DNA of 64,000 nt from Panacagrimonas perspica. Lineage in GTDB: Bacteria; Pseudomonadota; Gammaproteobacteria; Nevskiales; Nevskiaceae. The stretch lies in the NCBI RefSeq assembly GCF_004364935.1, contig NZ_SOBT01000009.1, positions 395,994-459,993 of the forward strand, written 5' to 3'. Of this stretch, positions 1 to 17,524 are shown piece after piece (the stretch's first letter is position 1; every line of letters starts with the position of its first letter). The notes beneath the pieces were generated by a model. That model searched no databases and was not told the origin of the DNA. It saw only the letters and a list, made by a program, of their open reading frames with translations. A program made the position numbers and the translations under genes.

Positions 1-873
1 GTTCCAGCTCAGCGGCAGTCCGGATTGCGTCTGGAATTCGCGAACGATCCAGCCCACGTCGCGGGCGTCTTCGGCGAATGGACCGAAGTTCCAGGCCTGG
101 GCTTTCGACGGGCCGTGCTCCCAGAGCGCCTTGGCCAGCGTCAGGTAGCCGCAGACCGGTTCGAGCACGTGCTGCCAGGGTCGCGTTGCCCGGGGGTTGC
201 GCAGAGAAAGCGTGACACCGCGATCCACGGCCCGCAGCGCGTCCGGGATGAGCCGGTCATCCGCCCAGTCACCACCACCGATCACGTTGCCGGCGCGAGC
301 AGTGGCGAGCCCCACGCCATGTTCCGCGTGGCGCGAAACCGGAAAGTACGAATCCCGAAACGACTGCGCCACGAGTTCCGCGCAGGCCTTGCTGCTGCTG
401 TAGGGGTCGTGCCCGCCCAGCCGATCGTCCTCGCGAAAGGCCTGCGGGCGATCGTTGTTCTCGTAGCACTTGTCGGTGGTGACCACGACGATCGCGCGCA
501 ATCCCGGCGCGGCGCGCAAGGCATCCAGCACCTGGACCGTGCCCAGCACGTTGGTCGAGTAGGTCTCCACCGGCTCGGCGTAGGAACGACGGACCAGCGG
601 CTGCGCCGCGAGATGGAACACGATCTCGGGCCGGGCCTGCGCGACAGCGTCGCGGAGCGCGGCAGCGTCCCGGATGTCGCCGGGTATCGAGTGCATCGAG
701 GCGCCCACGTTCGCCACCGTGAACAGGTTGGGTTCCGTCGGCGGTGCGGGCAGCGAAAAACCCGTCACCCGGCTTCCCAGCTCCTGCAGCCAGAGGCTCA
801 GCCAGCCGCCCTTGAATCCCGTGTGACCGGTGACGAGGACGCGCTTGCCGCTCCAGAACGGATCCTCGCTCAC
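1..873 (-). CDS. rfbG: CDP-glucose 4,6-dehydratase (partial, C-terminus off window)
   Basis: Converts CDP-D-glucose to CDP-4-keto-6-deoxyglucose, the entry point to CDP-linked deoxysugars of O-antigen. The frame begins with GTG at 873 (VSEDPFWSGKRV), six bases after the rfbF stop, and stays open for 291 codons to the window edge. Seen directly: a Rossmann motif VTGHTGFKGGW near residues 14-24, the family signature LAAQPLVRRSY, and the SDR catalytic segment DPYSSSKACAE (YxxxK). It is the third gene of a minus-strand arm and is probably translationally coupled to rfbF. The C-terminal part and any later gene, such as a sugar epimerase, lie beyond base 1. Family identification is firm; only the length is unknown. 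Confidence 0.93.
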   Translation of the reverse strand, partial: MSEDPFWSGKRVLVTGHTGFKGGWLSLWLQELGSRVTGFSLPAPPTEPNLFTVANVGASMHSIPGDIRDAAALRDAVAQARPEIVFHLAAQPLVRRSYAEPVETYSTNVLGTVQVLDALRAAPGLRAIVVVTTDKCYENNDRPQAFREDDRLGGHDPYSSSKACAELVAQSFRDSYFPVSRHAEHGVGLATARAGNVIGGGDWADDRLIPDALRAVDRGVTLSLRNPRATRPWQHVLEPVCGYLTLAKALWEHGPSKAQAWNFGPFAEDARDVGWIVREFQTQSGLPLSWN

Positions 874-879
874 GTCGCG

Positions 880-1650
880 TCAGGTCCAGATCTGCCAGGG
901 CGCCTTGCCGGTGGCCCACAGCGCTTCGAGCTGGTTCTTGTCGCGCAGCGTGTCCATCGGCTGCCAGAAGCCGGCGTGCAGGAAGGCCGAAAGCTGATTC
1001 TCGTGGGCGAGCTGTTCCATCGGCTCCTTCTCCCACAGCACGTCGTCGGCCGCAATGTAGTCGAGCACCTTCGGCGAGAGAACGAAGAAACCGCCGTTGA
1101 TCCAGGCATTGTCGCCCTGCGGCTTTTCCTGGAACGACGACACGCTGCCGTCCTCGATGCGCAGCGCGCCGAATCGTCCGGGCGGCTGCGTGGCGGTGAG
1201 CGTGGCCAGCTTTCCGCGCTCGCGATGGAAGCGCAGCAGGGCCGTGATGTCGACGTCTCCGACGCCGTCACCGTAGGTCATGCAGAAGTCCTCATCGCCG
1301 AGGAAGCGGCGCACGCGCCGCATGCGGCCGCCGGTCTGCGTTTCCTCCCCCGTATCGACCAGCGTCACCCGCCACGGCTCGGCGTTGCGCTGGTGCACTT
1401 CCATGCGGTTCTGCGCCAGGTCGAAAGTGACGTCCGAGGTATGCAGGAAGTAGTTGGAGAAGTACTCCTTGATCATGTAGCCCTTGTAGCCCAGGCACAC
1501 CACGAAGTCGTGAAGGCCGTGCTGCGAGTAGAGCTTCATGATGTGCCACAGGATCGGCTTGCCGCCGATCTCGATCATCGGCTTGGGACGGGCGACCGAC
1601 TCCTCCGAGATACGAGAGCCTTTGCCCCCGGCCAGGATCACCACTTTCAT
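880..1650 (-). CDS. rfbF: glucose-1-phosphate cytidylyltransferase
   Basis: Makes CDP-D-glucose from glucose-1-phosphate and CTP, supplying the substrate of the adjacent rfbG product. The protein is 256 residues, the usual size for RfbF. The N-terminus carries the nucleotidyltransferase signature [17 protein letters not shown] followed by [12 protein letters not shown], and later GDGVGDVD with the metal-binding aspartate. I chose the ATG at 1650 over an upstream in-frame codon because homology starts at MKVVILAGG. This ATG also overlaps the stop of the upstream membrane-protein gene (ATGA, 1647-1650), which implies translational coupling. Confidence 0.95.
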
Positions 1651-3941
1651 GCCGTCTTCTCCTCGGCGGAATTCGCGCGCGGACCTGCGAACTTCAGAAG
1701 CCCCTTCCACAGCCGCAGCGAAATCATCGCAAACAGCAGCCAGAAGGTCGCCTGCGAAAGAACCGAAAAGAAGTGGCCCAACGCAGGCCGTTTCCAGTCG
1801 TAGGGTCTGCGCGCCAGGAAGCGTTCGGCCTGCGCTTTCTGCTGGATATCCTGCATGCGAAATCCGTCACCGGGAACGCAGGCGTTTTCCTGCGGATGGA
1901 CCAGGCAGGCCGGGTTGAACAACAGGCTCTGCCCCGACGCATCCGTCGAGAGGGCTTCGCCGTCCCGGATGCGTTCGATTTGAGGAAACGCCTCCAGGCG
2001 ATAGCCGTAGAGGGGGTTGTAGCAGAGGCCCTGGGAGATACCCAACATCATCGTGTCGTTCCGGGACCCGTAGCCCAACGCCCGCCGATCGCCGCCGACG
2101 TGGGTGATGGCAATCGGCGGTTGGCCTTCCAGCGTGGCCGCATAGGCCTCCATCACCGGACGCGGGTCATAGGTCTGCAAGGCGGGGTCGAAGTAGTACT
2201 GCAACGGCTCCTTGGCGGGTCCGAACCAGATCAGGACGAACGCCGCTGCGGCAATGAGATTCGCCTGCGCGGGTCGCTGCAGGATCAGCGCCTGCAAGGG
2301 TGAAGCCAGAAGCCATTGCACCAGCGGCAGATACAAGATGATCCAGCGCATCGGCCAGGTTGCGCTGTTGAGGATGGGGATTTCCTTGATCAGTCCTCGA
2401 ACCGGTCCGCTGTCCCAAAGAAGCAGGACCGGCAGCGCGAGAAGAAGCACCAGCCCCAACATTGAGAGGAGCCGCGCCAGGTCCATCGGCGCCGAAGGGC
2501 TCCCCTTTTTTTCGGCAGGCACCGTGCGATTACGCAGGAGCCAGATCCAGACACCCGCGACGACGCCGACGAACAGGGCCCCCAGGCCGAAGCCCAGGGC
2601 CCACTCGTGAGGGAGCGCCGTATAGCGCACTCCGGTCAGGGCCTTGGCAGAGAACCGATAGACCCATTCCGACGGGGCAAACAGGGACAAGGCGATGCTG
2701 GTCAACACGTCCCGCAGCGATGCGAAGCCCGGCAGTTCGTAGAAGTCGCGAGGGAACTGACGCATCAGGCTCAGCGACTCGTAAATCTTCGAGCTGTTGA
2801 GGACCAGCGCCGCCACACCTCCCGACACGAGGCGACCGGCAATCGTCCAGAAATGGGCGCGGGCCCGGAGAACCAGCACGCAACACAGCAGCAACGCAGC
2901 CAGGACGCCCGGAACCAGCATGCCGCCGAAGCCGAATTGCAGCCAGGCCGTCAGGAACACGGTGACGCCGATCGCAGGCCATACCTGGGCGCTCAGCTTG
3001 CGGGACGCGGGCCAGCAAAGCGCCAGCACGAGCCACGGCCACAGCGGCCACGGCTGATAGCCCGCCTCTCCCACTGCCGATCTCAGGGGCAGGAAGTTGT
3101 TGACGATTCCGATCACCGCGAAAAGAGCGGCTCCCAGAATCGTCCACCCGAAGACTCGACGCGCCAGCACGTAGCTGCCGACGAATCCGACGCCTGCGAT
3201 GAGCAGCGCATCCAGGTGAGTCGCCAGAAACGGATTCACCCCGTAGGTGAGCCACTGGAGCGGAGAATAGAAGGCGGCTTGCGGATCGGCGTAGAGAGCC
3301 GAGCCTGCGCACCAGGCTGGCGTGAACCATGGCGGATTGAAGAGGCCCCCGATCACGCCGTTGCTCATGAGCCAGTACTTGCCTTCGAGCAGGCCGATAC
3401 CGGTCAGCGAGAAGTCATGCCCGATGGAGGTGGAGCCGGAGTAGAAGCGTCCCCAGATCAGCTCGAACAGAACGAGCGATAGCCCCAGAGTGATAAGCAG
3501 CACCTTGAGCCCGGGCGCCGAGCGACGCAGGGAAGTCTCGGCAACAACCGGGACTGCTCCCGCCGAGAAGACCGTCGCGGGCTTGTGCAGCACAACCTCA
3601 CAAAGAGCGACGAGTCCTACCGCCAAGGCCTGGGCCCATCGCAAATCCATTCCCTGCGCGCTGAGCGCGTTGACCATCAGCGCAGCGACGCCGAGCGGAA
3701 TCAGGCGATCCAGCTGGAACTTCGCGAATTGGCGAAGACCTGAATCAGGCGCTGTCTGCCGGCAGAAGCGACGCTGAACGACGAAGGCCAGCGTCGTGGC
3801 CAAGAGATAGGAAAGTGCGCAGAGCGCCCAGAGGTTGACGCTCGGCGGCAGGATCTGGAGCAAGCCCGTGAAGGCCAGCCACGCGGTCAGCGCAATCGAC
3901 GCGGTCCATACGATGAAACGCGGCTTTTCGTCGTCAAGCAT
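1647..3941 (-). CDS. polytopic membrane protein, putative GT-C-type glycosyltransferase
   Basis: A 764-residue protein with many hydrophobic helices and a soluble C-terminal segment of roughly 120 residues before a last helix. I cannot name it. Residues about 30-130 look like part of a GtrA-type four-helix domain (conserved-looking QRRF.., [12 protein letters not shown]). The following part has features of GT-C or YfhO-like enzymes: an extracytoplasmic acidic patch GHDFSL after a helix, then [19 protein letters not shown], typical of loops that hold lipid-linked sugar donors. It lies between rfbF (4-base overlap) and the C-methyltransferase gene (19 bases upstream). That position suggests sugar transfer on the periplasmic side. 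Function is inference. Confidence 0.6.
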
Positions 3942-3960: not shown

Positions 3961-5184
3961 TCAGACCGCGGGATAAGTCAGCACCGGATGCGGGTAGGAC
4001 AGCTGATCGCGAATGTGCCGGGCGATGTCCGCCTGGTGACCGATGCTGGAAACCAGGATGCTTTCCGAACGCCCGGAAACCTCCTCTGGGGCAAGGATGC
4101 GAATCCCGTTGATGGTCTTTCCCCAGTAGCGGGAGTTTCCGTCGACGAACGCCGCGATGGGCACGCGGCCCAGTTCGCTGGTGGCTAGCAGGCGCAGCGT
4201 GAGCGTGCCGCAACCCCAGACGATCAGCGGTTCGGCACGTCGCGCGAGTTCGGCAACGAAGTCGCGGATTGCGCGTTCGCGTCGGTGCGAGGTCTCGATG
4301 TACGCAGTGATCGTCGCCGCGGTTGCGTGTTCGGGAACGATCGGTTCGACCTTCTCAGACGCCTTCAGGACGCTCGCCGCAACGGGCGCCGTGACTTCAT
4401 CGTTGTGCGCGCGATCGCGTTCCAGCAGATCGACGACTTCGAAGCCGTTGCAGCGCGCCAGCGCGGCCAGGGAATTCGCCGACAGGTAATTGATGTGCTC
4501 GACGCTGAACTCCTGGAACGGCGCGTCGACGTTTCGTACCCAGCCTCCCGCGTTCGGTATCTCGATATAGAGGAGGCCGCCGGGCGACAAAGCGGCGCGG
4601 AGCGTGCGCAAGACCGCTGCGATATCCCGAACGTGCTCCAGCACGGCGATCAGGATGATCATGTCGTAGCCCGTTTCCCCGTCCGGAATCAGCCGGGCAT
4701 CGGACAAGTCACCAACGCGAACCTTGACGCGGTAATTCTCCCAGGCCGCAGCAGCACACCCCGGGCTCGGATCCAGGCCGACGACATTGGAATAGCCGCG
4801 GTCTCTCAACATGCCGAGCATCGCGCCCGTGGCGCAGCCGACCTCGAGGACGCGGAGCGATCGCGTAGGCAGATAGCGCTCGATATCCGACACTTCCTGT
4901 TCGAAGCGTCTCAGCGTGGCGCGCGGTAATTCCGCGCTTTTGCCGGTCCCCTCGTATTTCGAGCCATCGCGATAGTAACGATCAAAATCTGCCTGCTCGG
5001 GGATCTTGTCTGCGAAACAAACGCCGCAGACGCCACAGGTCACGACGTCATAGCCGTCCATGATGCTGACGCCTTCGATGCGGGCAAAGTGCTGCTCAAA
5101 CAAGCGGTGCCCACGTGGCCCGCCGCAGCCCGGGCACGCGCGCACGAACATACGAATGCCGCCGAACTCGTCAATCTTGCTCAT
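3961..5184 (-). CDS. sugar C-methyltransferase, SAM-dependent
   Basis: A 407-residue three-part enzyme of the TylC3/NovU type, which C-methylates nucleotide-linked 4-keto-6-deoxysugars. Residues 17-53 hold a zinc-ribbon pattern (CPGC at 17-20, CGVC at 50-53). The class I methyltransferase core has motif I VLEVGCATG at 112-120. From about residue 305 a Rossmann-like C-terminal domain (IVWGCGTLTLRLL, then AFVDGNSRYWG, ILAPEEV) resembles PF08484. I chose ATG 5184 because AGGAG lies seven bases upstream; the longer reading frame lacks this. With rfbF and rfbG next door, the likely substrate is CDP-4-keto-6-deoxyglucose or a derivative. The substrate assignment is inference. Confidence 0.85.
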   Translation of the reverse strand: MSKIDEFGGIRMFVRACPGCGGPRGHRLFEQHFARIEGVSIMDGYDVVTCGVCGVCFADKIPEQADFDRYYRDGSKYEGTGKSAELPRATLRRFEQEVSDIERYLPTRSLRVLEVGCATGAMLGMLRDRGYSNVVGLDPSPGCAAAAWENYRVKVRVGDLSDARLIPDGETGYDMIILIAVLEHVRDIAAVLRTLRAALSPGGLLYIEIPNAGGWVRNVDAPFQEFSVEHINYLSANSLAALARCNGFEVVDLLERDRAHNDEVTAPVAASVLKASEKVEPIVPEHATAATITAYIETSHRRERAIRDFVAELARRAEPLIVWGCGTLTLRLLATSELGRVPIAAFVDGNSRYWGKTINGIRILAPEEVSGRSESILVSSIGHQADIARHIRDQLSYPHPVLTYPAV

Positions 5185-5287
5185 CGCTCTCCTGCGCGAA
5201 ACTGCCTGCGGCAGTCGGACCACAGCGTGATGACCACAACAAAGAATTCCTGCAAAGCAAGTCGGTCAAGAGTTGTCTTGTCGCTGC

Positions 5288-6310
5288 TCATGGGCCGTCC
5301 GCAAGCGCGTCTGGTCCTTTGGTCAAGGCGCTCGGCGTACGTAACGGTCCGATCGCCGGATCCGCGCTCGCCTGCTCGGGGAAATTGACGCGGTACAACT
5401 CGACCACGTGGGGATGGTCCTGCGCCCTCTGATGCAGGGATGCCACGTACTCCCCGATCAGTCCGGCGATGAGGATCTGCACCGAGCCGAACAGGAAGAT
5501 ACCAATCAGGAGCGGCGCCTGGCCCAGCGGGAAAGAACTCCAGAACGCAAGTTTTGCCAACAGATAGATACCGGCAACCATGAAACCGAAGACCGACATG
5601 GCGGCGCCCAGGAGTGTCGCGAATCGGATCGGCGCGCGCGAGGAACTGATCAGGCCGAGTAGCGCGACCTCGAAAAGCGACAGGACCGTGTGCTTGGAGA
5701 ATCCAAAACGGCGTCGCTCCTTCTGAAACGAGACGCGGGCCATCGGTAGCCCAATTTCCGACACCAATCCGCGCACATAGGGATAGGGTCCCCCGACGCG
5801 GCGCATCAGTTCAATCACGCGACGGTCATACAAGCCAAATCCCGTAAACCCCGGTACCGCACCTGACTCCGACACCATCTCCAGGATGAGGTAATAGAGC
5901 TGGCGGCACCGCCGCATGAGCCATCCGTCGGGCGCCCGATCGTAGACCGCGGCCACTACCGCACTCCCCTTTTCCCACTCGCGCAGCAGTTGCGGGATCA
6001 GCTCCGGAGGATCCTCGAGGTCACTGGCGAGGCAGATGGCAGCATCGCCGCGGGCCTGCATCAGCGCGTGGTAGGGCGACCGGACCGGGCCGAAGTTGCG
6101 CGCGTTCACGATCAGCTTCACTCGCGGATCTCGGGCGCACAGCACCATGATCTTTGCAGCGGTGCTGTCAGTAGAACCGTTGTCGATCAGGATCAGCTCG
6201 AAGTCGTACCCAGCTTCGCTAGCCATGACCGCGCCCACTCGCTCGTAGAGCAGTTCGACGTTTTGTTCTTCGTTGAAGCAGCCGGAGACGATACTGACCA
6301 GTCGCGTCAT
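5288..6310 (-). CDS. GT2 glycosyltransferase, GtrB/DPM-like polyprenyl-phosphate type
   Basis: 340 residues. The N-terminal GT-A domain begins SIVSGCFNEEQNVELL and includes ILIDNGSTDSTA and DLEDPPELIP (DXD-like metal site). Two C-terminal membrane helices (about 230-290) end in IAGLIGEYVASLHQRAQ. This is the architecture of enzymes such as GtrB and ArnC, which load a sugar on undecaprenyl phosphate at the cytoplasmic face. ATG 6310 begins the homology; a GTG nine bases upstream (6319) is also possible and has a more distant GGAG. A GtrA-type protein encoded at the end of the opposite operon could flip the product. Confidence 0.85.
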   Translation of the reverse strand: MTRLVSIVSGCFNEEQNVELLYERVGAVMASEAGYDFELILIDNGSTDSTAAKIMVLCARDPRVKLIVNARNFGPVRSPYHALMQARGDAAICLASDLEDPPELIPQLLREWEKGSAVVAAVYDRAPDGWLMRRCRQLYYLILEMVSESGAVPGFTGFGLYDRRVIELMRRVGGPYPYVRGLVSEIGLPMARVSFQKERRRFGFSKHTVLSLFEVALLGLISSSRAPIRFATLLGAAMSVFGFMVAGIYLLAKLAFWSSFPLGQAPLLIGIFLFGSVQILIAGLIGEYVASLHQRAQDHPHVVELYRVNFPEQASADPAIGPLRTPSALTKGPDALADGP

Positions 6311-6536
6311 TGGCTCCACCCGGCTTCGATTCTCCCGGAGCGGGGGGGAGGCTTACCGCAGGTGGATTTTTGGATGGGTCGCATTCGGCGAGGTTCACGC
6401 GGGTTCTGGCAGTTCGGGCGCGACCAACCCGAATGGTCCATCGCCGAGGCCATGATACGGTCAAGACGCGCAGCGGCTATACCGCTACGCTCGTCACCGC
6501 GGCAGGTATTCCCGGACCCAACTTGGCGAGCATTTC

Positions 6537-7727
6537 TTGAAAACCGACGACTGCGGACTTCGACTCGAACGCCTCCTGTCGGAGAGCATGGACGCCGTTC
6601 TGGAACGCGAACGGGACAGCCTGGAGCGTGAAATCGGAGGTCTCGACAGGCCCTTCGTCCTGTTCGGCGCCGGAAATCTGGGGCGCAAGGTACTGAAGAC
6701 GCTGCGCCGCATTGGGAAAGAGCCGGCGGCTTTTATGGACAACAATCCGGCTCTGTGGGGTACAGAACTGCTCGGCGTTCCGATCCTCCAACCTTCAGAG
6801 GCGGCGAAGAGATTCGATCCGTCCCAGGTGGGTGTGATCACGACGATCTGGTGCGGTGAGGCCACCGACAAGATGTCCGACCGGATCGGGCCACTGCGCA
6901 CCCTCGGCTTTTCCCACATCGCGTTGTTCGGGCACCTGGCTTGGAAATTCCCGGAAGCATTCCTGCCTCATTACAGTCTGGACCGCCCCTCAAAAGTCAT
7001 CCTGGACGCGCCCCAGATTCGCGCGGCGTTCGCCTGCCTAGACGACGACGAGTCACGGCGATTGTTCGTGGATCACGTCGAGTGGCGCCTGTTCCTGGAC
7101 TACGACCTTCTGCCGCGACCGTCGAAGGAGGAAATCTATTTCGGCCCGAAATTCTTCGGCCTGTCGGAATCCGAGGTGCTTTACGACATAGGCGCCTATA
7201 CCGGTGACTCGGTGGAGTGCTTCCTTCGCAGCGCCCGTGGAGAGCGTTTCTCGCAAGTCCATTCTTTCGAACCTTCTCCAGACAATTTTCGACGGCTGGA
7301 GCAGTACGTGGCCTCGCTAGGCGATCGGGAACAACGGATCCAGACGCACCAGCTTGCCCTCGGTGACGGAATCGGCGAGATCCAGGTCGAGACACAGAGC
7401 GGCCCTGCGTCGAGAGTCGGCAGCGGTACGGAAACCGTCGCGATGACGACTATCGACGCCTTCGCGCAGACCGCCGCCCCACCGACGCTGATCAAGATCG
7501 ACATCGAAGGGTTCGAGCCGCAGTGCCTGGCAGGCGCTCACGAGACCATCTCTCGCACGCAGCCGGTCGTCGCAGTCTGCGTCTATCACCTGCAAGCGCA
7601 TCTTTGGGAAATCTTGCTGCAGCTGCACTCGTACTATCCGCAGTATCGCTACCGATTTTGCCCGCACCTGGCCGATGGTTGGGATCTGGTGCTCTATGCC
7701 GTACCCCCTAACCGCCTGCCCGCCTGA
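6537..7727 (+). CDS. FkbM-family methyltransferase with N-terminal Rossmann module
   Basis: 396 residues, first gene of the plus-strand operon. The C-terminal half is a FkbM-type O-methyltransferase: VLYDIGAYTGDSVECF near 212 and KIDIEGFEPQ near 322. The N-terminal third has a nucleotide-binding fold, FGAGNLGRKVLKTL at 43-56, then AFMDNNPALWG and ILQPSEA. It closely resembles the C-terminal module of the C-methyltransferase at 3961-5184. The start is a TTG at 6537; the next ATG (6588) would still keep the Rossmann motif, so the first 17 residues are uncertain. It probably methylates a hydroxyl of the glycan. The target is unknown. Confidence 0.8.
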   Translation: MKTDDCGLRLERLLSESMDAVLERERDSLEREIGGLDRPFVLFGAGNLGRKVLKTLRRIGKEPAAFMDNNPALWGTELLGVPILQPSEAAKRFDPSQVGVITTIWCGEATDKMSDRIGPLRTLGFSHIALFGHLAWKFPEAFLPHYSLDRPSKVILDAPQIRAAFACLDDDESRRLFVDHVEWRLFLDYDLLPRPSKEEIYFGPKFFGLSESEVLYDIGAYTGDSVECFLRSARGERFSQVHSFEPSPDNFRRLEQYVASLGDREQRIQTHQLALGDGIGEIQVETQSGPASRVGSGTETVAMTTIDAFAQTAAPPTLIKIDIEGFEPQCLAGAHETISRTQPVVAVCVYHLQAHLWEILLQLHSYYPQYRYRFCPHLADGWDLVLYAVPPNRLPA

Positions 7728-7749: not shown

Positions 7750-9546
7750 ATGCGCGTCGCCGACTACGTATTCGCATTCATCGCCCGCCAAGAGATCGGG
7801 CATGTGTTCTTCCTGCCTGGAGGAGGAGCCATGCATTTGAACAATGGACTGCTCCGGCAGCAGTCTCTCACCGCCGTCAGCATGCTCCATGAGCAAGGTG
7901 CAGCGATCGCGGCGGAAGGTTACGCCCGCACGTCCGGAAAGTTCGGCGTGTGTCTTGTCACTTCGGGCCCCGGCGCGACGAACGCGATGACGGGACTCGC
8001 GGGCGCCTGGTTCGAGTCCACACCGGTCGTGATCATCTCCGGGCAGGTCAAACGCGCAGACCTCAAGCGGGACAGTGGCCTTCGGCAGCTAGGAACCCAG
8101 GAACTCGACATCGTCACGGTGGTGAGATCGTTGACGAAGTACGCCGTCTGCCTCACCGAACCTGCGCGTGTCCGCTACGAACTGGAAAAAGCGTTCCACC
8201 TGATGCGGGAGGGGCGACGCGGGCCGGTGTGGATCGACATCCCGCTCGATGTGCAGGCAACGACGATCGATCCGGAGGCACTGGTCGGCTTCGATCCCGC
8301 GGAGACGCAGACGCCGAAAGCGCAGGAGCCGGCAGCTTTCGTGGCAGAGCTGGCGCAATGGATCCGGCAGGCCCGGCGGCCAGTATTGTTGGCGGGCAAC
8401 GGCGTGCATTGCGCCGGCGCCGAGGCCGACCTGCGCGATCTGATCCAGCGTCTTCAGATCCCGACATTGACCACCTGGATCGCTGCGGACCTGTTGGAGT
8501 ATTCGCACCCGCTGTTCTTCGGGCGGCCCGGTACCGTTGCCTCGCGTGGCGCCAACTTCACGGTCCAGAACTCGGATCTGGTGCTGGCCATCGGTAGCCG
8601 CATGGATTTCTCGATCACGGGCTTCGATCGGACCCAGTTCGCCCGCGACGCCCGGATCGTCGTGGTCGACATCGACGCTGCCGAGATCCAGAAGCTGGGC
8701 GACTTGCCCGACCTCGCGTTCGTGTCGGACGCAAAGCGGTTCATCCAGGATCTGTTGGCGGAGTTGGGAACAGAGCCGCAGCCGTCCCGTACCGACTGGA
8801 TCGAGAGATGCAGCGGCTGGAAAGAAAAATACCCGGTCGTACTGCAGGAATATCGCGACCAAACCGACTTCGTGAACACCTACGTGTTCACGGAAACGCT
8901 ATGCGAGGAACTGGCCGAAAACGATCAGATCATTCCTGGTAGCTCCGGTGCCGCCCTCGACACGTTCTGGCTGTCGGTCAAACTCAAGAAAGGCCAGCGG
9001 GCGGTCGCGACCGGCGGCTTGGGGTCCATGGGCTACGGGCTGCCCGCATCGATCGGGGGTTGCCTGGGTAGCGGGCGGCAACGAACCATTTCCGTCGACG
9101 GTGACGGCGGATTCGTCATGAACATCCAGGAACTGGAAGTCGTTCGTCGACTGCAGCTACCCATCAAGTATTTCGTGCTGAACAATAACGGCTATGCCTC
9201 GATTCGGGCATCGCAGGGTGGCTACTTCAAGGAAACAATCGGCTGCGATCCAAGCTCGGGACTGACGCTCCCTGACATCGGCAAGCTCGCTGCAGCGTTT
9301 CAGATTCCTTTTGCTCGTGTCCAGGACCCGTCCGCGCTACGGAGCTCAATTTGCGAGGTGCTTGCCATTGACGGACCCGCGATCTGCGAGGTGATCGTCC
9401 AACCGGAACAGAACATCGGCCCGCGCGTCACCTCCAGAATCAGGAGTGACGGCAGCATGGTGTCGAGTCCGCTGGAAGATCTCTTCCCCTTTCTCGATCG
9501 CGAGGAATTGCGGGCCAACATGCTCATTCCCTTGCTCGAACCATGA
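7750..9546 (+). CDS. thiamine-pyrophosphate enzyme, acetolactate-synthase-like
   Basis: 598 residues with the three-domain layout of acetohydroxyacid synthase. The N-terminal PYR domain has the catalytic glutamate (MLHEQGAAIAAEGYAR, E48) and TSGPGATNAM. The C-terminal PP domain has the TPP/magnesium motif from GDGGF (D452) to LNNNGYASIRASQ. ATG 7750 begins the homology; no clear ribosome site precedes it and it sits 22 bases after the FkbM stop. Such enzymes in O-antigen clusters include YerE, which adds a two-carbon branch to a CDP-sugar. The flanking isomerase and Gfo/Idh genes also recall the inositol trio IolD-IolE-IolG. Amino-acid synthesis is unlikely here because no small regulatory subunit is present. 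The reaction is unknown. Confidence 0.85.
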   Translation: MRVADYVFAFIARQEIGHVFFLPGGGAMHLNNGLLRQQSLTAVSMLHEQGAAIAAEGYARTSGKFGVCLVTSGPGATNAMTGLAGAWFESTPVVIISGQVKRADLKRDSGLRQLGTQELDIVTVVRSLTKYAVCLTEPARVRYELEKAFHLMREGRRGPVWIDIPLDVQATTIDPEALVGFDPAETQTPKAQEPAAFVAELAQWIRQARRPVLLAGNGVHCAGAEADLRDLIQRLQIPTLTTWIAADLLEYSHPLFFGRPGTVASRGANFTVQNSDLVLAIGSRMDFSITGFDRTQFARDARIVVVDIDAAEIQKLGDLPDLAFVSDAKRFIQDLLAELGTEPQPSRTDWIERCSGWKEKYPVVLQEYRDQTDFVNTYVFTETLCEELAENDQIIPGSSGAALDTFWLSVKLKKGQRAVATGGLGSMGYGLPASIGGCLGSGRQRTISVDGDGGFVMNIQELEVVRRLQLPIKYFVLNNNGYASIRASQGGYFKETIGCDPSSGLTLPDIGKLAAAFQIPFARVQDPSALRSSICEVLAIDGPAICEVIVQPEQNIGPRVTSRIRSDGSMVSSPLEDLFPFLDREELRANMLIPLLEP

Positions 9547-10418
9547 CGGCGGACGCATTTCTGAAAGCCTACGCGGACGCAGGCCTGTACACGATGCAGG
9601 GTCGATTGTCGGCACCCGAAAATGGACGCTTCCAGTCTTTCCCGCGCAATCATTGGCGAACCGAGATCGAGCGCGCTCCGCAAGTTCCGTTGAGAGGGAT
9701 CGAGTGGATCTACGACCTGTACGGGAGTGGCGCCAATCCTCTTGAAACGGCAGAGGGCCGCGCTGACCTTCGCCAGCAGCTAACGGCGTCGGGCGTGAGT
9801 GTGGTGTCGATCTGCGCCGACTACTTCATGGATCGTCCCTTCGTGCGCGTCAGCCGCGAGGAATGCTTGCAACGACGGGAGAACCTCGCGTGGCTCATTT
9901 CCATCTGCCCCGAGATGGGAATCGGGCGGATCGTCCTGCCGTTCGTCGATGCATCGAGGATCGCGGACGCGGCCGATGCCTCCGTCGTGCTGGAGTGCCT
10001 GCGTGGCGCACTGCCGCAGGCCGAAGCTGCCGGCGTGGAGTTGCACCTCGAGACTGATCTGGACCCACTCCGTTTCCGCGCGCTCCTGGACAACGTTCCG
10101 CACCCGCTGGTGAAAGTGAATTACGACTCGGGCAACAGCGGGTCGCTCGGATATCGGCCGCAGGACGAGTTCGCTGCCTACGGGTCCCGGATAGGCAGCT
10201 TCCATATCAAGGACCGGGCGCTCGGTGGTGGGACCGTCCCACTCGGCTCCGGCAATGTGAATTTCACGGAGCTGCGGCAATGTCTGCTCGACGTCGACTA
10301 TCGCGGTGACTTCGTGATGCAGGTGGCGCGCGGGGCGTCCGGAAACGAGGTCGACTGGCTGCGTGAGGCCTCCGCCACCGCCTGCGGTTGGCTACGCGGC
10401 GACGCAACCCTTAAGTAA
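9543..10418 (+). CDS. sugar phosphate isomerase/epimerase, TIM barrel
   Basis: 291 residues of the xylose-isomerase-like TIM-barrel fold (AP endonuclease 2 family; UlaE, IolE and IolI relatives). Metal-binding segments seen in order are ELHLETD, VKVNYDSGNSG, GSFHIKDRALGGG and the closing FVMQVARG with a glutamate nearby. Its ATG overlaps the TPP-enzyme stop (ATGA, 9543-9546), so the two are probably made in fixed ratio. The role is isomerisation or epimerisation of the ketose that the TPP enzyme makes or uses. That pairing is inference from gene order. Confidence 0.8.
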   Translation: MTADAFLKAYADAGLYTMQGRLSAPENGRFQSFPRNHWRTEIERAPQVPLRGIEWIYDLYGSGANPLETAEGRADLRQQLTASGVSVVSICADYFMDRPFVRVSREECLQRRENLAWLISICPEMGIGRIVLPFVDASRIADAADASVVLECLRGALPQAEAAGVELHLETDLDPLRFRALLDNVPHPLVKVNYDSGNSGSLGYRPQDEFAAYGSRIGSFHIKDRALGGGTVPLGSGNVNFTELRQCLLDVDYRGDFVMQVARGASGNEVDWLREASATACGWLRGDATLK

Positions 10419-10432
10419 GGCCTGGAGAATTA

Positions 10433-11482
10433 ATGCGCGTTCTATTCTGTGGGCTGGGTGGCATCGGCCAGCGGCATCTCCGCAATCTGCGCACGCTGAT
10501 GGGCGATGACTTGGAAGTACATGCCTACCGCGTACGTGGGCTTCGGCAAAAGCTGCGGGACAACCTGAGCATCGAGGAAAACGCCGACCTCGAGGCGGAC
10601 TACGGACTGATCGTTCATACGGATCTCCAGGCTGCGTTGTCGACGCAACCGCAGGTCGTGTTCGTCTGCAACCCCAGCAGCCTGCACACGCCCATTGCGC
10701 TCGCCGCCGCTCGCGCTGGGGCGCATGTTTTCCTCGAGAAGCCGGTTTCCCATTCGCTCGATGGCCTCGACGAGCTTCAGGCGGTCGTCGAGTCGACCGG
10801 GCGGGTCTGCTACGTCGGGTACAACCTGCGTTTCCACCCGGGGTTCGAGCGCCTGAAGACACTGCTGGATGACGGCTTCTTCGGCAATATTTTCAGCGTC
10901 CAGGCGGAGGTGGGCGAATACCTTCCGGGTTGGCACCGATATGAAGACTATCGGCAGATGTACGCGTCGCGCCAAGACCAGGGCGGTGGCGTGATCCTCT
11001 CGCAGATCCACGAGATGGATCTGATCTATTGGTATTTCGGGATGCCCGAGTCGATCGTTTGCCGCGGCGGCAAGCTGAGCAATCTGGAAATCGACGTCGA
11101 AGACACCGCGACCTCCCTGATGCAGTACCGCGGCCCCCTTGGTCGCTTTCCGATTTCCTTGCACCAGGACTTCGTCCAGCGTCCGCCGGCAAGAACATTC
11201 AAGATCGCAGGCGACCGGGGCGTAGCGATCATGAACCTCATTGCCAACCACCTTCAGGTCTACAGTTCCGAGGGTCAGCTGATCGAGCAATCAGAATTCG
11301 TTGGCTTCCAGCGCAACGACATGTTCCTCGCGCAAATGCGCCACTTCCTGGCTTGCGTGCAGCAAGGTGAGGTCCCACGGGTAGGCCTGCACACCGGCGT
11401 CCAGAGCTTGCGCATGGCGCTTGCGGCGAAGGCATCGCTCTCGCAGGGGACGGAGGTAAGGCTGTCCGGAGACGCGTTGTGA
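10433..11482 (+). CDS. Gfo/Idh/MocA-family NAD(P)-dependent dehydrogenase
   Basis: 349 residues. The N-terminal Rossmann fold opens MRVLFCGLGGIGQRHL (GxGxxG at 7-12). The family signature EKPVSHSLDGL and the following YVGYNLRFHPGF lead into the C-terminal alpha/beta substrate domain. GGGVILSQIHEMDLIYWYFG holds the usual active-site histidine segment. Members oxidise or reduce a hydroxyl of sugars or cyclitols, often of nucleotide-sugars in LPS loci. It starts 14 bases after the isomerase gene and its stop overlaps the GTG of the next gene. Confidence 0.85.
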   Translation: MRVLFCGLGGIGQRHLRNLRTLMGDDLEVHAYRVRGLRQKLRDNLSIEENADLEADYGLIVHTDLQAALSTQPQVVFVCNPSSLHTPIALAAARAGAHVFLEKPVSHSLDGLDELQAVVESTGRVCYVGYNLRFHPGFERLKTLLDDGFFGNIFSVQAEVGEYLPGWHRYEDYRQMYASRQDQGGGVILSQIHEMDLIYWYFGMPESIVCRGGKLSNLEIDVEDTATSLMQYRGPLGRFPISLHQDFVQRPPARTFKIAGDRGVAIMNLIANHLQVYSSEGQLIEQSEFVGFQRNDMFLAQMRHFLACVQQGEVPRVGLHTGVQSLRMALAAKASLSQGTEVRLSGDAL

Positions 11483-12321
11483 CCCGCTCTTCAAATGGGC
11501 GAGATCTGTTCTCGCTCGACGGCCGCGTCGTCATCATCACCGGCGGCGGCGGCATGCTCGGCTATCAGCACGCTGCGACGGTGGCGAGTCTCGGCGGAAA
11601 GCCGGTGCTTCTCGATATCAGCGAAGAAGCATTGGACAGGAACCGTTCCCGCCTGATCGCCGAGTTCGGCACCCCGGTACTGACGCGACCCGTGGACATC
11701 ACGGACCCTGTCGCCGTGGAGGACGCGAAGGCCGCGGTGCTGCAGCATCACGGCCAGGTCGACGTGCTGATCAACAACGCCGCGCGTAATCCAAAAGTGG
11801 AGGACGCCTCCGATCGCAACTTCTCGCGTCTCGAGAATTTTCCGATCGAGCAATGGCGGCAGGACCTGGACGTGGGCCTGGGCGGCGCGTTCCTGTGCGC
11901 CCAGGTGTTCGGGACCCAGATGGCGCTGGCGGGACGCGGCGGCGTGATCATCAATATCGCGTCCGATCTTGGCGTCATTGCACCGGACCAGCGGCTTTAC
12001 CGCGTCGAGGGGCTTGCGGAGCATCTGCAACCGGTCAAGCCCGTCACCTACTCGGTGGTGAAGCACGGCCTGCTGGGCTTGACCAAATACCTGGCCACTT
12101 ACTGGTGCGAACAGGGCGTCCGTTGCAACGCACTCTCACCGGGCGGCGTCTACGCGGGACAGAACGACGTCTTCGTGAGCAAGCTCGCCAAGCTGATTCC
12201 GATGGGGAGGATGGCCGAGCCCGACGAATATCGTGGCGCCATCGCATTCCTCTGTTCCGATGCCTCGGCTTACTTGAACGGGGCGAATCTGGTGATGGAC
12301 GGAGGTCGCAGCGTCTGGTGA
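11479..12321 (+). CDS. short-chain dehydrogenase/reductase
   Basis: 280 residues, classical SDR. The cofactor motif is TGGGGMLGYQHA (TGxxxGxG variant, about 15-24), then NNAARNPK for the NNAG motif, a serine in INIASDLG and the catalytic YSVVKHG (YxxxK). It ends LNGANLVMDGGRSVW, the normal SDR C-terminus. The GTG start overlaps the preceding stop (GTGA). It likely reduces or oxidises a sugar intermediate of the operon. The insertion EDASDRNFSRLENFPIE after the NNAG region resembles SDRs of LPS clusters. Confidence 0.82.
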   Translation: MTRSSNGRDLFSLDGRVVIITGGGGMLGYQHAATVASLGGKPVLLDISEEALDRNRSRLIAEFGTPVLTRPVDITDPVAVEDAKAAVLQHHGQVDVLINNAARNPKVEDASDRNFSRLENFPIEQWRQDLDVGLGGAFLCAQVFGTQMALAGRGGVIINIASDLGVIAPDQRLYRVEGLAEHLQPVKPVTYSVVKHGLLGLTKYLATYWCEQGVRCNALSPGGVYAGQNDVFVSKLAKLIPMGRMAEPDEYRGAIAFLCSDASAYLNGANLVMDGGRSVW

Positions 12322-12383
12322 TTGTGGTCGAATGCGCCTTCGGTGCTCGACCCTGAATTGATCCTTGAGTGCCTGGAGCGCGT

Positions 12384-13427
12384 TTGAACGAGATGGCCGA
12401 TTTCTTCACCGCTCCGCTGGAAACGGCGATCGCCGGCTGCTCCCCCGAACTGCTGCGTCCGCTGGTTGGCGCGAAGGTTCTGGTGACGGGTGCCAGCGGT
12501 TTCTTCGGTGAATGGGTCATTCGCGCGATCCGCCACCTCAACCGGCGATCCTTCTCCATCCGCGCGTTCTGCGTCAGCCGTGATCCAGCGGCGATGACGT
12601 CGCGCCTTCCGGATCTTCGCGGGCTCTCCGACATCGTCTGGCAGGTAGGCGACGCCGCCACTTTTCACCAGCTCCAGATCGAAGCGGACCTCACGCACAT
12701 CCTGCACATGGCGGCCAGTTCCCACGCCAAGGACCGGCCCATCACCGCGGAAGAAACGGTGCGGACCATCCTGTCCGGAACCGAGGGATGCATCGAGCTC
12801 GCCAAGCGCACGGGGGCTCATCTGCACTTCGTCAGTTCCGGCGCGGTGTATGGAAGCCGCCGGCGTTCGGACGGCCCCGCACGGGAAGACCAGATCGGAC
12901 GCTTCGCACCCGATCCTGCCGATCCCGCGCAGGCGTACGGAAACGCGAAGCGCATGGCCGAAGCGATGCTGGCCTGTTCGCTGGACAACTACTCGGTGTC
13001 GCGGCCTTTCGCTTTTTTGGGACCCCTGCTCCCTCTGGACAAGCACTTCGCCGCCGGCAATTTCATGCGCGATGCCGCCATGTCCCGGCCGATCCTGATC
13101 CAGGGCGACGGCTCTCCGTTGCGGTCGTATCTGCATCCGGCCGATCTCGCGATCTGGCTTCTGGCGCTGCTCGCGCAGGCGCCCCGGCGAGCCGTGATGA
13201 ACGTGGGTTCGGATGAGCCGCTGTCCATTGGCGAACTCGCCACCCGGGTGAGTCGAATCGCGGGGTCGCCCGGCCCGTTGATCGCGGGTGCAAACACCCC
13301 GAACCCCGATCCGGCTGCCTACTGGCCGGACGTGTCGCGCGCCCGCTCCCTGGGCCTTTCCAACTCGCTCGGCCTGGACCGCGCCATCCAGGACGGTTTG
13401 ACGTGGGCGCGGGGAACGCTGACGTAG
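12384..13427 (+). CDS. NAD-dependent epimerase/dehydratase (extended SDR)
   Basis: 347 residues. The Rossmann motif VLVTGASGFFGEW is followed by LHMAASSHAKD, an SSGAVYGSRR segment with the catalytic serine, and the active-site tyrosine/lysine YGNAKRMAE. It belongs to the RmlB/GalE-like group acting on nucleotide-sugars. GGAG at 12375-12378 sits five bases before TTG 12384, which I take as the start. GTG 12369 and ATG 12393 are alternatives. The 62-base gap before it is the largest in the operon. Confidence 0.78.
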   Translation: MNEMADFFTAPLETAIAGCSPELLRPLVGAKVLVTGASGFFGEWVIRAIRHLNRRSFSIRAFCVSRDPAAMTSRLPDLRGLSDIVWQVGDAATFHQLQIEADLTHILHMAASSHAKDRPITAEETVRTILSGTEGCIELAKRTGAHLHFVSSGAVYGSRRRSDGPAREDQIGRFAPDPADPAQAYGNAKRMAEAMLACSLDNYSVSRPFAFLGPLLPLDKHFAAGNFMRDAAMSRPILIQGDGSPLRSYLHPADLAIWLLALLAQAPRRAVMNVGSDEPLSIGELATRVSRIAGSPGPLIAGANTPNPDPAAYWPDVSRARSLGLSNSLGLDRAIQDGLTWARGTLT

Positions 13428-13455
13428 AATTCATCGCATTACAGGGAGAAACAGA

Positions 13456-14334
13456 ATGACGAATCAATCGACGGTACGGATCGGCAACGCGAACGTCGGC
13501 GACGGGCAGCCGAGTTACGTGATCGCCGAGATCGGGATCAACCACAACGGCGACCTGGGGGTCGCAAAGAAGCTGATCAGCCTGGCGGTCGCATCGGGCT
13601 GCGACGCCGTGAAATTCCAGAAGCGGACCGTGGACGTGGTCTACACGGCCGAAGAGTTGGCCAAGCCGCGCGAGAACCCGTTCGGACCTACCAACGGCGA
13701 CCTCAAGCGGGGCCTCGAATTCGGACCCGATCAGTACCGCGAGATCGACAACTACTGCCGCCAGGTCGGCATCCCCTGGTTCGCGTCCTGCTGGGACGAG
13801 CAGTCGGTCGATGTGATCGATGCGTTCAATCCGCCCTGCTACAAGATCGCATCGGCCAGCCTGACGGACGACAACCTGCTGCGACATACGCGGGCCAAGG
13901 GGCGCCCCATCATCATGTCGACAGGGATGAGCACGCAGGAGCAGGTGGATCACGCGGTCGAGGTCCTGGGAACCAAGGACCTCGTCCTGATGCACACCTG
14001 CAGCACCTACCCCTCTCAGTACGGCGAACTCAACCTGCGGGTGATTCCGGCGATGAGGCAGCGCTACGGAATTCCCGTGGGCTATTCGGGTCACGAGACC
14101 GGCCTGGCATCGACGGTCGCCGCCTTGACGCTGGGGGCATGCGCCATCGAACGGCACATCACGCTGGATCGCGCCATGTGGGGTTCCGACCAGGCGGCGT
14201 CGGTTGGACCCAGCGGCCTGACCCGGCTGGTGCGCGATATCCGCATCGCGGAGGAATCCCTTGGCGACGGCATCAAGCGCATGGTTCCGAGTGAAGTACC
14301 CGTGATGAAGAAGCTGCGTCGAGTGGGTGCATGA
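13456..14334 (+). CDS. NeuB/SpsE-type PEP-condensing sugar acid synthase lacking SAF domain
   Basis: 292 residues. The family condenses phosphoenolpyruvate with an aldose aldehyde to give a 2-keto-3-deoxy sugar acid. Seen: IAEIGINHNGDLGVAKKL, CDAVKFQKR with the PEP-site lysine, ASCWDEQSVD, HTCSTYPS, VGYSGHETG and the metal-site ERHITLDR. The chain stops at KKLRRVGA, so the C-terminal SAF (antifreeze-like) domain of about 60 residues found in sialic and legionaminic acid synthases is absent. The usual GPDH motif reads GSDQ. AGGGAGAAACAG gives a good ribosome site. Its stop overlaps the KdsC-like gene, which suggests a phosphorylated product. Confidence 0.85.
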   Translation: MTNQSTVRIGNANVGDGQPSYVIAEIGINHNGDLGVAKKLISLAVASGCDAVKFQKRTVDVVYTAEELAKPRENPFGPTNGDLKRGLEFGPDQYREIDNYCRQVGIPWFASCWDEQSVDVIDAFNPPCYKIASASLTDDNLLRHTRAKGRPIIMSTGMSTQEQVDHAVEVLGTKDLVLMHTCSTYPSQYGELNLRVIPAMRQRYGIPVGYSGHETGLASTVAALTLGACAIERHITLDRAMWGSDQAASVGPSGLTRLVRDIRIAEESLGDGIKRMVPSEVPVMKKLRRVGA

Positions 14335-14813
14335 GCGAGCCGATCCGCGCCGTCGCGCTCGACGTCGACGGCGTGCTGACCGACAACACGTTCACGTGGG
14401 GAGCGAACGGCGAGGAGTTCAAGCGCTTCTCGTTCGCCGACGTGATGGGTATCTCCCGGACGCGTCGATTGGATATCGCCTTTGCCCTCATCTCGGGAGA
14501 GGACAGTCCCCTCGTGACGCGCTTCGCGGCCAAGGTCGGCATCGAGAACGTCTACCTGGGATGCAAGGACAAGGCGGCCGCGCTGAAGCAGTTCGCCGAC
14601 AGCGTCGGCGCGCCGCTGGCGGCCGTCGCCTTCATGGGCAACGACATCAACGATGTCGACGCCATGCGCATCTCGGGGCTCGCGGCGGCTCCCGCGGACG
14701 CGCATCCGTCGGCTATTCGCGTGGCACAGGTCGTCACCGTCAGGAAAGGCGGTGAAGGCGCGGTGCGGGAATTTCTGGACGCCCTGTTTCTGGATCCGGC
14801 TGGCCAGGCCTAG
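14331..14813 (+). CDS. HAD phosphatase, KdsC-like
   Basis: 160 residues, the size of KDO-8-phosphate phosphatase. The HAD nucleophile motif is ALDVDGVLTDN, motif II threonine/serine lies in FALISGEDS, the lysine in CKDKAAAL and the acidic motif III in FMGNDINDVDAM. It overlaps the NeuB-like gene by four bases (ATGA). It is therefore likely to dephosphorylate the sugar-acid phosphate made by that synthase. A true housekeeping KdsC is usually found with kdsD or lpt genes, which are not here, so I infer a pathway-specific role. Confidence 0.85.
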   Translation: MSEPIRAVALDVDGVLTDNTFTWGANGEEFKRFSFADVMGISRTRRLDIAFALISGEDSPLVTRFAAKVGIENVYLGCKDKAAALKQFADSVGAPLAAVAFMGNDINDVDAMRISGLAAAPADAHPSAIRVAQVVTVRKGGEGAVREFLDALFLDPAGQA

Positions 14814-14822
14814 CATCGCGTG

Positions 14823-15287
14823 ATGTCCGGCTGGATCAAGACGCTCGATGCAAGGCTCATCGCGGTGAGCCGGCGATTTGCGCCTGAATGGATTGCCTCG
14901 AGGATCGAGAAGGAGAACGTTCGCCGCTTCCTGCTTTTTCTCGTCGTCGGCGGAATCAACACGCTCTTCGGCTACGCCGTTTTTTGCGCGCTGCTGTACG
15001 CCGGCCAGCACTACGCCATCGCGGGGCTGGTGTCGACGATTCTTGGAGTGGCCTTCAATTTCGTCACCACGGGTGGGATCGTCTTCGAGAACCGGGATCC
15101 CCGGCTCCTGTTTCGATTCTCTTCCGGCTACGTTTTGCTGTATGGGATCGGCGTAGGCGAGATGCGAATCGCAGAGCTGCTTGGATTCAATCTTTACGTG
15201 GCTTCGGCTGCGCTCCTGCTTCCGAACGCCATATTTTCGTATCTGTTCAACAGGCGATATGTTTTCCCGGAGCCACGGCGCGGGTGA
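14823..15287 (+). CDS. GtrA-family membrane protein
   Basis: 154 residues with four hydrophobic helices, the normal GtrA (PF04138) size. The conserved start FLLFLVVGGINTLFGY and the C-terminal NAIFSYLFNRRYVF are diagnostic. GtrA proteins are thought to flip polyprenyl-linked glucose or similar sugars to the periplasm. It ends the plus-strand operon. A GtrB-like transferase (5288-6310) and a GT-C-like protein (1647-3941) in the same locus could complete a Gtr-type system. A GTG one codon earlier (14820) is an alternative start. Confidence 0.85.
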   Translation: MSGWIKTLDARLIAVSRRFAPEWIASRIEKENVRRFLLFLVVGGINTLFGYAVFCALLYAGQHYAIAGLVSTILGVAFNFVTTGGIVFENRDPRLLFRFSSGYVLLYGIGVGEMRIAELLGFNLYVASAALLLPNAIFSYLFNRRYVFPEPRRG

Positions 15288-17467: not shown

Positions 17468-17479
17468 GTCTTCCCCCAT

Positions 17480-17510
17480 AAAAAAACGCCGCCCGAGGGC
17501 GGCGTTTTTT
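17480..17510 (-). terminator. Rho-independent terminator after pilin gene
   Basis: A perfect eight-base GC stem (CGCCGCCC/GGGCGGCG type) with a three-base loop lies between an A6 run and a T6 run, so it can act on both strands. It sits 14 bases after the pilin stop. It also lies immediately before the ribosome site of the GT-C/TPR gene, so that gene is probably expressed by read-through. Confidence 0.9.
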
Positions 17511-17524
17511 CCAGCTCTGTTCGC

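Follow-up and report, generated by a model that had tools for sequence, protein, structure and literature searches.

A NeuB-family synthase beside a YerE-like enzyme in Panacagrimonas perspica: a probable operon for a CDP-linked, 4-C-branched higher sugar

Genes of the NeuB family are usually annotated as a sign of sialic-acid-like sugars. What, then, does a NeuB-family synthase do in an operon without a cytidine monophosphate (CMP) transferase? This question is raised by a 64,000-nucleotide stretch of the Panacagrimonas perspica genome (contig NZ_SOBT01000009.1, positions 395,994 to 459,993; hereafter the window), in which seven genes, all on the plus strand and separated by gaps of -4 to +47 bases, encode a thiamine pyrophosphate (TPP) enzyme, a TIM barrel, a Gfo/Idh/MocA oxidoreductase, two short-chain dehydrogenases/reductases (SDRs), a NeuB-family synthase and a KdsC-type phosphatase. 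A first-pass annotation, made from the letters alone, had placed and named these genes, and the Pfam and NCBIfam profile matches on which our domain calls are based confirm their place, strand and families. We propose that this operon, together with divergent rfbFGH genes, probably makes a higher sugar that is linked to cytidine diphosphate (CDP), branched at C4 and destined for a surface glycan, with the TPP enzyme grafting the decarboxylated NeuB-made acid onto a keto-sugar. The genes on which the argument turns are the following.

C2:394456-395754, adjoining the window on the outside: rfbH (739 bits vs a cut-off of 423)
1..873, minus, cut at the window start and extending to C2:395778: rfbG, CDP-glucose 4,6-dehydratase (TIGR02622, 477 bits vs a cut-off of 278, at C2:395805-396851; 60% identity over 275 aa to a Pseudomonas RfbG)
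880..1650, minus: rfbF, glucose-1-phosphate cytidylyltransferase (over 254 aa, 69% identity to an RfbF of Pseudomonas with a TIGR02623 score of 473 bits)
6537..7727, plus: FkbM-type methyltransferase heading the operon (Methyltransf_21, 62 bits)
7750..9546, plus: YerE-like thiamine diphosphate (ThDP, that is TPP) enzyme, three TPP domains
9543..10418, plus: xylose-isomerase-type TIM barrel (AP_endonuc_2, 80 bits)
10433..11482, plus: Gfo/Idh/MocA sugar oxidoreductase (Pfam)
11479..12321, plus: SDR oxidoreductase of the NeuB module (Pfam/NCBIfam)
12369..13427, plus: extended SDR (Epimerase, 84.8 bits)
13456..14334, plus: NeuB-family synthase (NeuB PF03102, 254 bits)
14331..14813, plus: KdsC-type phosphatase (TIGR01670, 119.6 bits vs a cut-off of 106.95)

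The TPP enzyme, whose gene starts at 7750 and whose relatives begin at the same residue, has JanthE (8RPH) as its closest solved structure (441 bits, 4.5e-131, over 591 residues), the best acetolactate synthase reaching 275 bits. Of its 54 NCBIfam matches, the best 25 contain no IolD model, and the acetolactate equivalogs among them all stay under their cut-offs. A GDG...NN motif is present. Judged by way of JanthE, the protein can be regarded as YerE-like. A plasmid search returned 1668 records, all below 60% identity, the 20 listed ones lying at 32-34%. According to excerpts of two reports, an alpha-keto acid gives the acyl group in YerE-like enzymes and a ketone accepts it, YerE itself using pyruvate as donor and CDP-3,6-dideoxy-4-keto-glucose as acceptor (PMC12188165, PMC12247030). 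ErwE, as described in the same excerpt of the second report, leaves pyruvate unused and prefers longer 4-hydroxy-2-oxo acids such as 4-hydroxy-2-oxopentanoate; its acceptor was assigned as CDP-4-keto-3,6-dideoxyglucose, yielding erwiniose, the in vitro proof having used an analogue (PMC12247030). When benzaldehyde is the acceptor, JanthE can use 4-hydroxy-2-oxovalerate as its donor; the excerpt of PMC12188165 calls the physiological substrates of JanthE unidentified. The YerE-like nature of the TPP enzyme, the rfbFGH genes beside the operon and the FkbM gene at its head had all been missed by the first-pass annotation.

Scanning a genome collection with the TPP gene gave 54 loci. Twelve of them, all in other genomes (nine Pseudomonas, one Stutzerimonas, one Halopseudomonas and one gammaproteobacterial metagenome-assembled genome, MAG), retain the block FkbM-TPP-TIM-Gfo-SDR with its gene order unchanged, at 52-76% identity. 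Because this block is kept, the grouping of the seven genes is not due to chance, and the idea that they form a functional set was borne out. Chance pairing was also tested from two non-TPP starting genes, the TIM barrel and RfbH, with the outcomes given below. In the 12 Pseudomonas-type loci, FkbM lies upstream of TPP (52-59% identity), the Gfo/Idh/MocA protein is 64-67% identical, and upstream of the block stand rfbF-rfbG-rfbH, an HddC-like nucleotidyltransferase, a CBS+HddA-like kinase and a NeuB+SAF+TIM fusion. Besides, a long glycosyltransferase gene follows downstream and a FlgL match precedes in five, probably the layout of a flagellin glycosylation island. The SDR at 11479..12321 has relatives at 71-76% in 15 TPP-type Pseudomonas loci, and the extended SDR has relatives at 28-39% in 15 of 15. 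More widely, rfbG or rfbH was present in 33 of 39 well-flanked TPP loci. To its near relatives the operon is foreign: among 61 genomes (P. perspica and 60 relatives), the TPP matches listed outside the own genome reach at most 36% identity, 369 sampled genomes from the class yielded the TIM gene at 1e-40 in the own genome alone, and the phylum sample added one further genome of the class with a TIM gene (G299, locus L106), of a type with the CMP-transferase NeuA.

Which gene accompanies the TPP gene was counted, at 60 bits or more, in 57 loci, that is, the 54 and three later additions (L125-L127). The partner was NeuB in 23, an HMGL (4-hydroxy-2-oxovalerate-aldolase-like) protein in 23, HpcH in one and none in 10, two of the latter being on very short contigs; two partners never occurred together. 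On a quick TPP tree with long branches flagged, from which L050, L075 and L076 were left out (truncated, fragment, broken frame), the partner labels change 6 times (minimum 3), as against a shuffled mean of 24.2. Outside the Pseudomonas type, the gene directly 5' of TPP mostly encodes an HMGL-type protein, an HpcH/HpaI aldolase or a NeuB+cupin fusion, the last in some loci separated from TPP by a small protein, and 22 of the 23 HMGL aldolases lie within 41 bases of TPP. Four of these 23 proteins were scanned, and 4-hydroxy-2-oxovalerate aldolase models scored best in all four (TIGR03217 at 69-81 bits, under the cut-off of 286); one, compared with solved structures, matched a putative aldolase first and 4-hydroxy-2-oxovalerate aldolases next. 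The HpcH protein of L066 had 2-keto-3-deoxy acid aldolases as its best matches, under the equivalog cut-offs. NeuB products belong to the class of 2-keto-3-deoxy acids. By family membership, all three partners would produce or act on 4-hydroxy-2-oxo (2-keto-3-deoxy) acids, the class from which ErwE draws its donors.

The NeuB+cupin fusions occur in six loci, which come from Pseudomonadota, Melainabacteria, Cyanobacteria, Nitrospirota, Bacteroidota and an Altiarchaeota MAG. In five of the six (L033, L035, L037, L043, L069), a protein of ~190-212 aa with a DxDxV (HAD phosphatase) motif sits between NeuB and TPP. The predicted fold of the L037 protein (pLDDT, the model's confidence score, 83.5; four sequences) matches 5'-nucleotidase and phosphoglucomutase-type HAD enzymes, and the model points to a phosphatase in the place of KdsC. 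As a separate observation, L039 (8361-9974) and its relatives encode an aldolase-like protein with ~240 extra C-terminal residues without a Pfam match.

Does the TPP enzyme stand where a CMP-transferase otherwise would? The TIM gene was searched in 398 genomes of the phylum and 298 of the genus of L023, one hit on a 6 kb contig (L101) being left out. Of 21 TIM-selected loci, 11 carried NeuA only, 10 TPP only and none both; the TPP-only loci are the window, six of the 12 Pseudomonas-type loci and L125-L127, and NeuA of L107 and L115 was recognized by weaker matches. In the NeuA-type operons (L105-L115; 11 stretches of 6 to 20 kb), TPP was not found. Seven of them have a NeuB 47-54% identical to that of the window, L108-L110 have a NeuB-TIM protein 50-53% identical to the Pseudomonas one, and for L112 the fetched stretch showed no NeuB. 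None of L105-L115 has all of rfbF, rfbG and rfbH at identities like those of the TPP loci, L108 having only distant RfbF-, RfbG- and RfbH-like genes (25-28%). The exchange is most direct between two series of loci. L125-L127 run rfbH, HddC, CBS-HddA, NeuB-TIM, TPP (48-49% to that of the window) and then SDR-TIM-SDR-SDR, with rfbF and rfbG also present in L126 and L127 and the L125 stretch starting inside rfbH, while L108-L110 run CBS-HddA, NeuB-TIM, NeuA, SDR, TIM, SDR, SDR. NeuA here occupies the interval that holds TPP in L125-L127, where TPP follows NeuB-TIM directly in L126 and after ~1 kb more in L125 and L127. On the NeuB tree, the NeuB of the window groups with the seven NeuA-type NeuBs (support 99) and the Pseudomonas NeuB-TIM with the three others (85), so that the partner changed at least twice, whichever the direction.

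As a control, RfbH served as a further starting point; it was found in 38 of the 398 genomes including the own one; 38 places outside the own genome were taken with up to ~9 kb of flank on each side, less at contig ends. A TPP-superfamily gene occurred in 18 of these 38 loci. An acid-making enzyme was found at 80 bits in 4 of 18 loci with TPP vs 0 of 20 without (p 0.04), and at a BLAST E of 1e-6, applied to all 38 alike, in 6 of 18 vs 1 of 20 (p 0.03). Pfam was run here on 10 chosen proteins, all from TPP-bearing loci, and the NeuA calls rest on one query. The two TPP loci added at E 1e-6, L128 and L165, encode 4-hydroxy-2-oxovalerate aldolases over the TIGR03217 cut-off, and the single locus without TPP is L134. 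Near rfbH in L128 (7077-9019), L165 (3164-5051) and L134 (10387-12266), the aldolase (aldolase-like in L134) is accompanied by a ~290-304 aa neighbour, which in L134 resembles acetaldehyde dehydrogenase by its first residues, and the pair is likely an erwiniose-type donor supply. TPP loci of this set without an acid-making enzyme may be pyruvate users. In L146 (1852-3498) and L148 (13624-15249), where TPP has 45% identity to that of the window, the gene immediately downstream of it encodes a 541-548 aa protein without a Pfam match, possibly a fourth type of partner.

Within the NeuB module itself, the synthase aligns through conserved motifs with the solved NeuB, PseI and SpsE, yet it scores under the equivalog cut-offs (235.8 vs 399.65 bits for NeuB, 203.4 vs 340.25 for PseI), and no SAF domain was found in it by Pfam and NCBIfam. 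The phosphatase passes the TIGR01670 subfamily cut-off while staying under those of the KdsC equivalog (109.8 vs 208) and of the model for the 9-phosphatase of 2-keto-3-deoxynonulosonic acid (KDN; 116 bits vs 180). Family membership agrees with the earlier expectation that NeuB and KdsC yield a 2-keto-3-deoxy acid. The TIM gene accompanies NeuB in both NeuA-type and TPP-type operons, and we propose that it encodes an isomerase or epimerase making the NeuB substrate; a search of solved structures (PDB) with it found nothing. A resemblance to IolD/E/G had been noted before, and it holds only at the superfamily level, with the Gfo/Idh/MocA protein at 109.8 bits vs an IolG cut-off of 355 and no IolE model among the three families matching the TIM gene. 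Inositol catabolism was rejected on these profile scores.

Taken together, a pathway can be sketched. The TIM barrel and the oxidoreductases would provide an aldose phosphate, which NeuB would join with phosphoenolpyruvate (PEP) to give a 2-keto-3-deoxy acid phosphate, the KdsC-type phosphatase releasing the acid. From their families, RfbF, RfbG and RfbH are expected to make CDP-4-keto-3,6-dideoxyglucose. The YerE-like enzyme, to go by its gene neighbourhood, would take the NeuB-made acid, drop CO2 and place the acyl chain on C4 of the keto-sugar; the extended SDR, a candidate ketoreductase, may then reduce the new ketone, and the methyltransferases may decorate the product. The substrates and the order of these steps are our inference, as are the reduction by the extended SDR and the use of the product in the glycan of a pilin, a flagellin or an O-antigen. 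An aldose of C4 to C6 would result in a branch of 6 to 8 carbons and a sugar of 12 to 14. Caryophyllose offers a parallel. It is given in the excerpt of PMC5706390 as 3,6-dideoxy-4-C-(D-altro-1,3,4,5-tetrahydroxyhexyl)-D-xylo-hexopyranose, and from its branch (OH at C1', CH2 at C2', hydroxyls beyond) we deduce what looks like the remnant of a decarboxylated, reduced 2-keto-3-deoxy acid. The product is best read as a neutral branched higher sugar, as are erwiniose and caryophyllose. The acid would then be an intermediate and not a surface sugar, and no CMP-transferase would therefore be required.

How do other explanations of these genes fare? The first-pass annotation had the TPP enzyme act at the start, rearranging sugar carbons into an aldose (phosphate) that NeuB condenses with PEP, with a novel acidic surface sugar as the outcome. 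The genes do form one operon-like run, as this order would have it. Most likely, however, the TPP enzyme acts after NeuB and consumes the acid, because it is YerE-like, adjoins rfbFGH and replaces NeuA in sister operons: its closest characterized relative is a ketone-accepting carboligase, the neighbouring genes would supply a CDP-keto-sugar, 34 of the 57 loci of this TPP family show no NeuB, and TPP is absent from sister operons in which NeuB is joined by these TIM and SDR genes. We therefore regard the TPP-first order as very unlikely, and an acid as the final constituent of the glycan as probably wrong. Even less credible is a classical nonulosonic-acid or 3-deoxy-D-manno-octulosonic acid (KDO)-type pathway (sialic, legionaminic, pseudaminic acid or KDN) with accessory genes. 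It accounts for the NeuB and KdsC domains, but it is countered by the equivalog scores and the missing SAF domain described above, and among the operon genes there is no aminotransferase or acetyltransferase for amino sugars and no CMP-transferase (Pfam, PF02348 search); rfbH has the aminotransferase fold but scores as RfbH. These scores and missing genes led us to reject a plain pathway of the nonulosonic or KDO kind, in line with the earlier remark that the gene combination fits neither this pathway nor inositol catabolism.

A more serious, though still unlikely, alternative is that one locus serves two sugars, the TPP enzyme combining pyruvate with the RfbFGH product into a yersiniose-type sugar while the NeuB/KdsC acid is CMP-activated from elsewhere, by NeuA (C2:1073621) or KdsB. 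This NeuA gene, the nearest PF02348 match on the contig, lies ~660 kb from the operon, which had rightly been said to contain no CMP-transferase. NeuBs of the window subfamily also adjoin NeuA in seven loci, and NeuB-TIM does in three more; besides, many loci with RfbH and TPP have no acid-making enzyme. On the other hand, a separate NeuB and a KdsC relative adjoin the distant NeuA. In this second NeuB locus of the genome (L091 3518-6653, C2:1071517-1074652), a NeuB+cupin protein (45% identical to the L035 one), the KdsC relative and NeuA stand together, a candidate for an ordinary CMP-activated acid pathway, and as an own-genome control it illustrates that the NeuB+cupin subtype occurs with either NeuA or TPP as partner. 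NeuA and TPP exclude each other in the 21 TIM-selected loci. Whole-genome searches add that CTP_transf_3 is present in 18 of 20 genomes having NeuB and TPP. All 12 Pseudomonas-type genomes have one strong match (212-220 bits), which from its size and score we take to be KdsB, and nine of the 12 have nothing else above 30 bits, hence no NeuA candidate. Microcystis wesenbergii and the Altiarchaeota MAG, which carry NeuB+cupin with TPP (L033, L041), gave no CTP_transf_3 match in the genome or in the MAG, which may be incomplete. No relatives of the NeuA or KdsB of the own genome were found within the 54 loci. Weak 'NeuA' matches in L143, L146, L148 and L163 were rejected, as they cover query residues 243-336, the cytidylyltransferase domain being 11-140; that of L163 falls on an Epimerase-family protein.

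Several observations nevertheless weigh against the grafting of a NeuB-made acid by the TPP enzyme. The NeuA ~660 kb away could act in trans on the NeuB product of the window, and three of the 12 Pseudomonas-type genomes (G062, G066, G070) have a second CTP_transf_3 gene (99-133 bits). NeuB with the same TIM and SDR genes is also found without TPP, so NeuB in general needs no TPP. The donors reported for YerE-like enzymes range from C2 to C8 in the excerpt of PMC12247030, and NeuB-made acids may exceed these in length and polarity. The position of NeuB is looser than that of the aldolases, with four genes between TPP and NeuB in the window, NeuB separated from TPP by an FkbM gene (~1.2 kb) in the 12 loci of the Pseudomonas type, and NeuB downstream of TPP in L063. 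Partner exclusion has blurred edges, as L066 and L131 carry, in addition to HpcH, an HMGL match too weak to reach 60 bits, and the Fisher p values (5e-8 for partner exclusion, and 3e-6) overstate the strength, because loci within groups are kin and the counts not independent. In the RfbH-selected set, 12 of 18 TPP loci lack an acid-making enzyme, several TPP genes, at 31-36% identity to that of the window, may not be YerE-like, and L134 has its aldolase-like gene without TPP on the contig, which ends within 4 kb of that gene.

Around the operon lie further genes that could belong to the same glycan locus.

1647..3941, minus: membrane protein of 764 aa with ~10 hydrophobic segments and without a Pfam match, a possible glycosyltransferase or polymerase
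3961..5223, minus: S-adenosylmethionine (SAM) methyltransferase of the same glycan locus (Methyltransf_23, 98.8 bits)
5288..6319, minus: family 2 glycosyltransferase (GT2; Glycos_transf_2, 80 bits)
14820..15287, plus: GtrA-type membrane protein closing the run (GtrA_DPMS_TM, 50.7 bits), likely with a role in glycan export or transfer

Several loci have a relative of the methyltransferase at 3961..5223 close to TPP, that of L037 with 58% identity. It shares ~64 residues (4042-4230, minus) with the FkbM protein (6648-6839, plus) at 36% identity; a LicD protein from the Pseudomonas islands also matches this stretch, which in the FkbM protein matches the NeuD family weakly (31 bits). Immediately downstream of the operon, on the minus strand (15593-18019), lie a type IV pilin gene (17525-18019) and the gene of a membrane protein (628 aa, weak TPR matches); these suggest that the glycan could serve the pilin.

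More tentatively, the NeuB family may have a second widespread job, namely making long 2-keto-3-deoxy acids that YerE-like enzymes decarboxylate before grafting the rest onto CDP-keto-sugars, with a plug-in donor enzyme (NeuB, 4-hydroxy-2-oxovalerate aldolase or HpcH aldolase) setting the branch length. Such sugars of ~13 to 14 carbons, larger than caryophyllose, would be carried on the flagella, pili or O-antigen of bacteria and also by at least one archaeon. If true, NeuB beside a YerE-like gene would signal the opposite of its usual annotation, an acid spent on a neutral branched sugar, which would account for NeuB genes without NeuA. Likewise, natural donors would be suggested for JanthE-type enzymes, the branch length of 4-C-branched sugars would become predictable from genomes, and further enzymes for tertiary alcohol synthesis would come into view. 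Among the literature matches listed (titles and abstract openings, with most subscription journals outside the search and earlier print possible), no link of a ulosonic-acid synthase to a YerE-like enzyme was found.

Known systems frame this proposal from several sides. The NeuB-NeuA-SDR-TIM-SDR operons of other Pseudomonadota (L105-L115) share with the window a NeuB of the same subfamily in seven cases, the TIM protein (31-43%) and, in 10 of 11, the SDR (52-58%), but they carry a CMP-transferase and, in the stretches fetched, no TPP enzyme. JanthE of Janthinobacterium (8RPH) has CDG in its ThDP motif, whereas the enzyme of the window has GDG. The caryophyllose pathway of Mycobacterium marinum, with the YerE-like MMAR_2332, shares the long hydroxylated chain on C4 of a 3,6-dideoxyhexose and the deoxy carbon adjoining the joining carbon, while the excerpt of PMC5706390 mentions neither a link to NeuB nor a source of the donor acid. 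Closest is the YerE/ErwE pathway to yersiniose and erwiniose, where rfbFGH likewise lie beside a YerE-like ThDP enzyme and where a CDP-linked, 4-C-branched 3,6-dideoxy sugar is expected as well; there the donor is pyruvate or, as inferred for erwiniose, comes from an aldolase, whereas here a longer one would come from a NeuB-family PEP synthase and a phosphatase. The operon of P. perspica would thus be a variant of the YerE/ErwE kind, its new part being the NeuB-family enzyme as the proposed maker of the donor.

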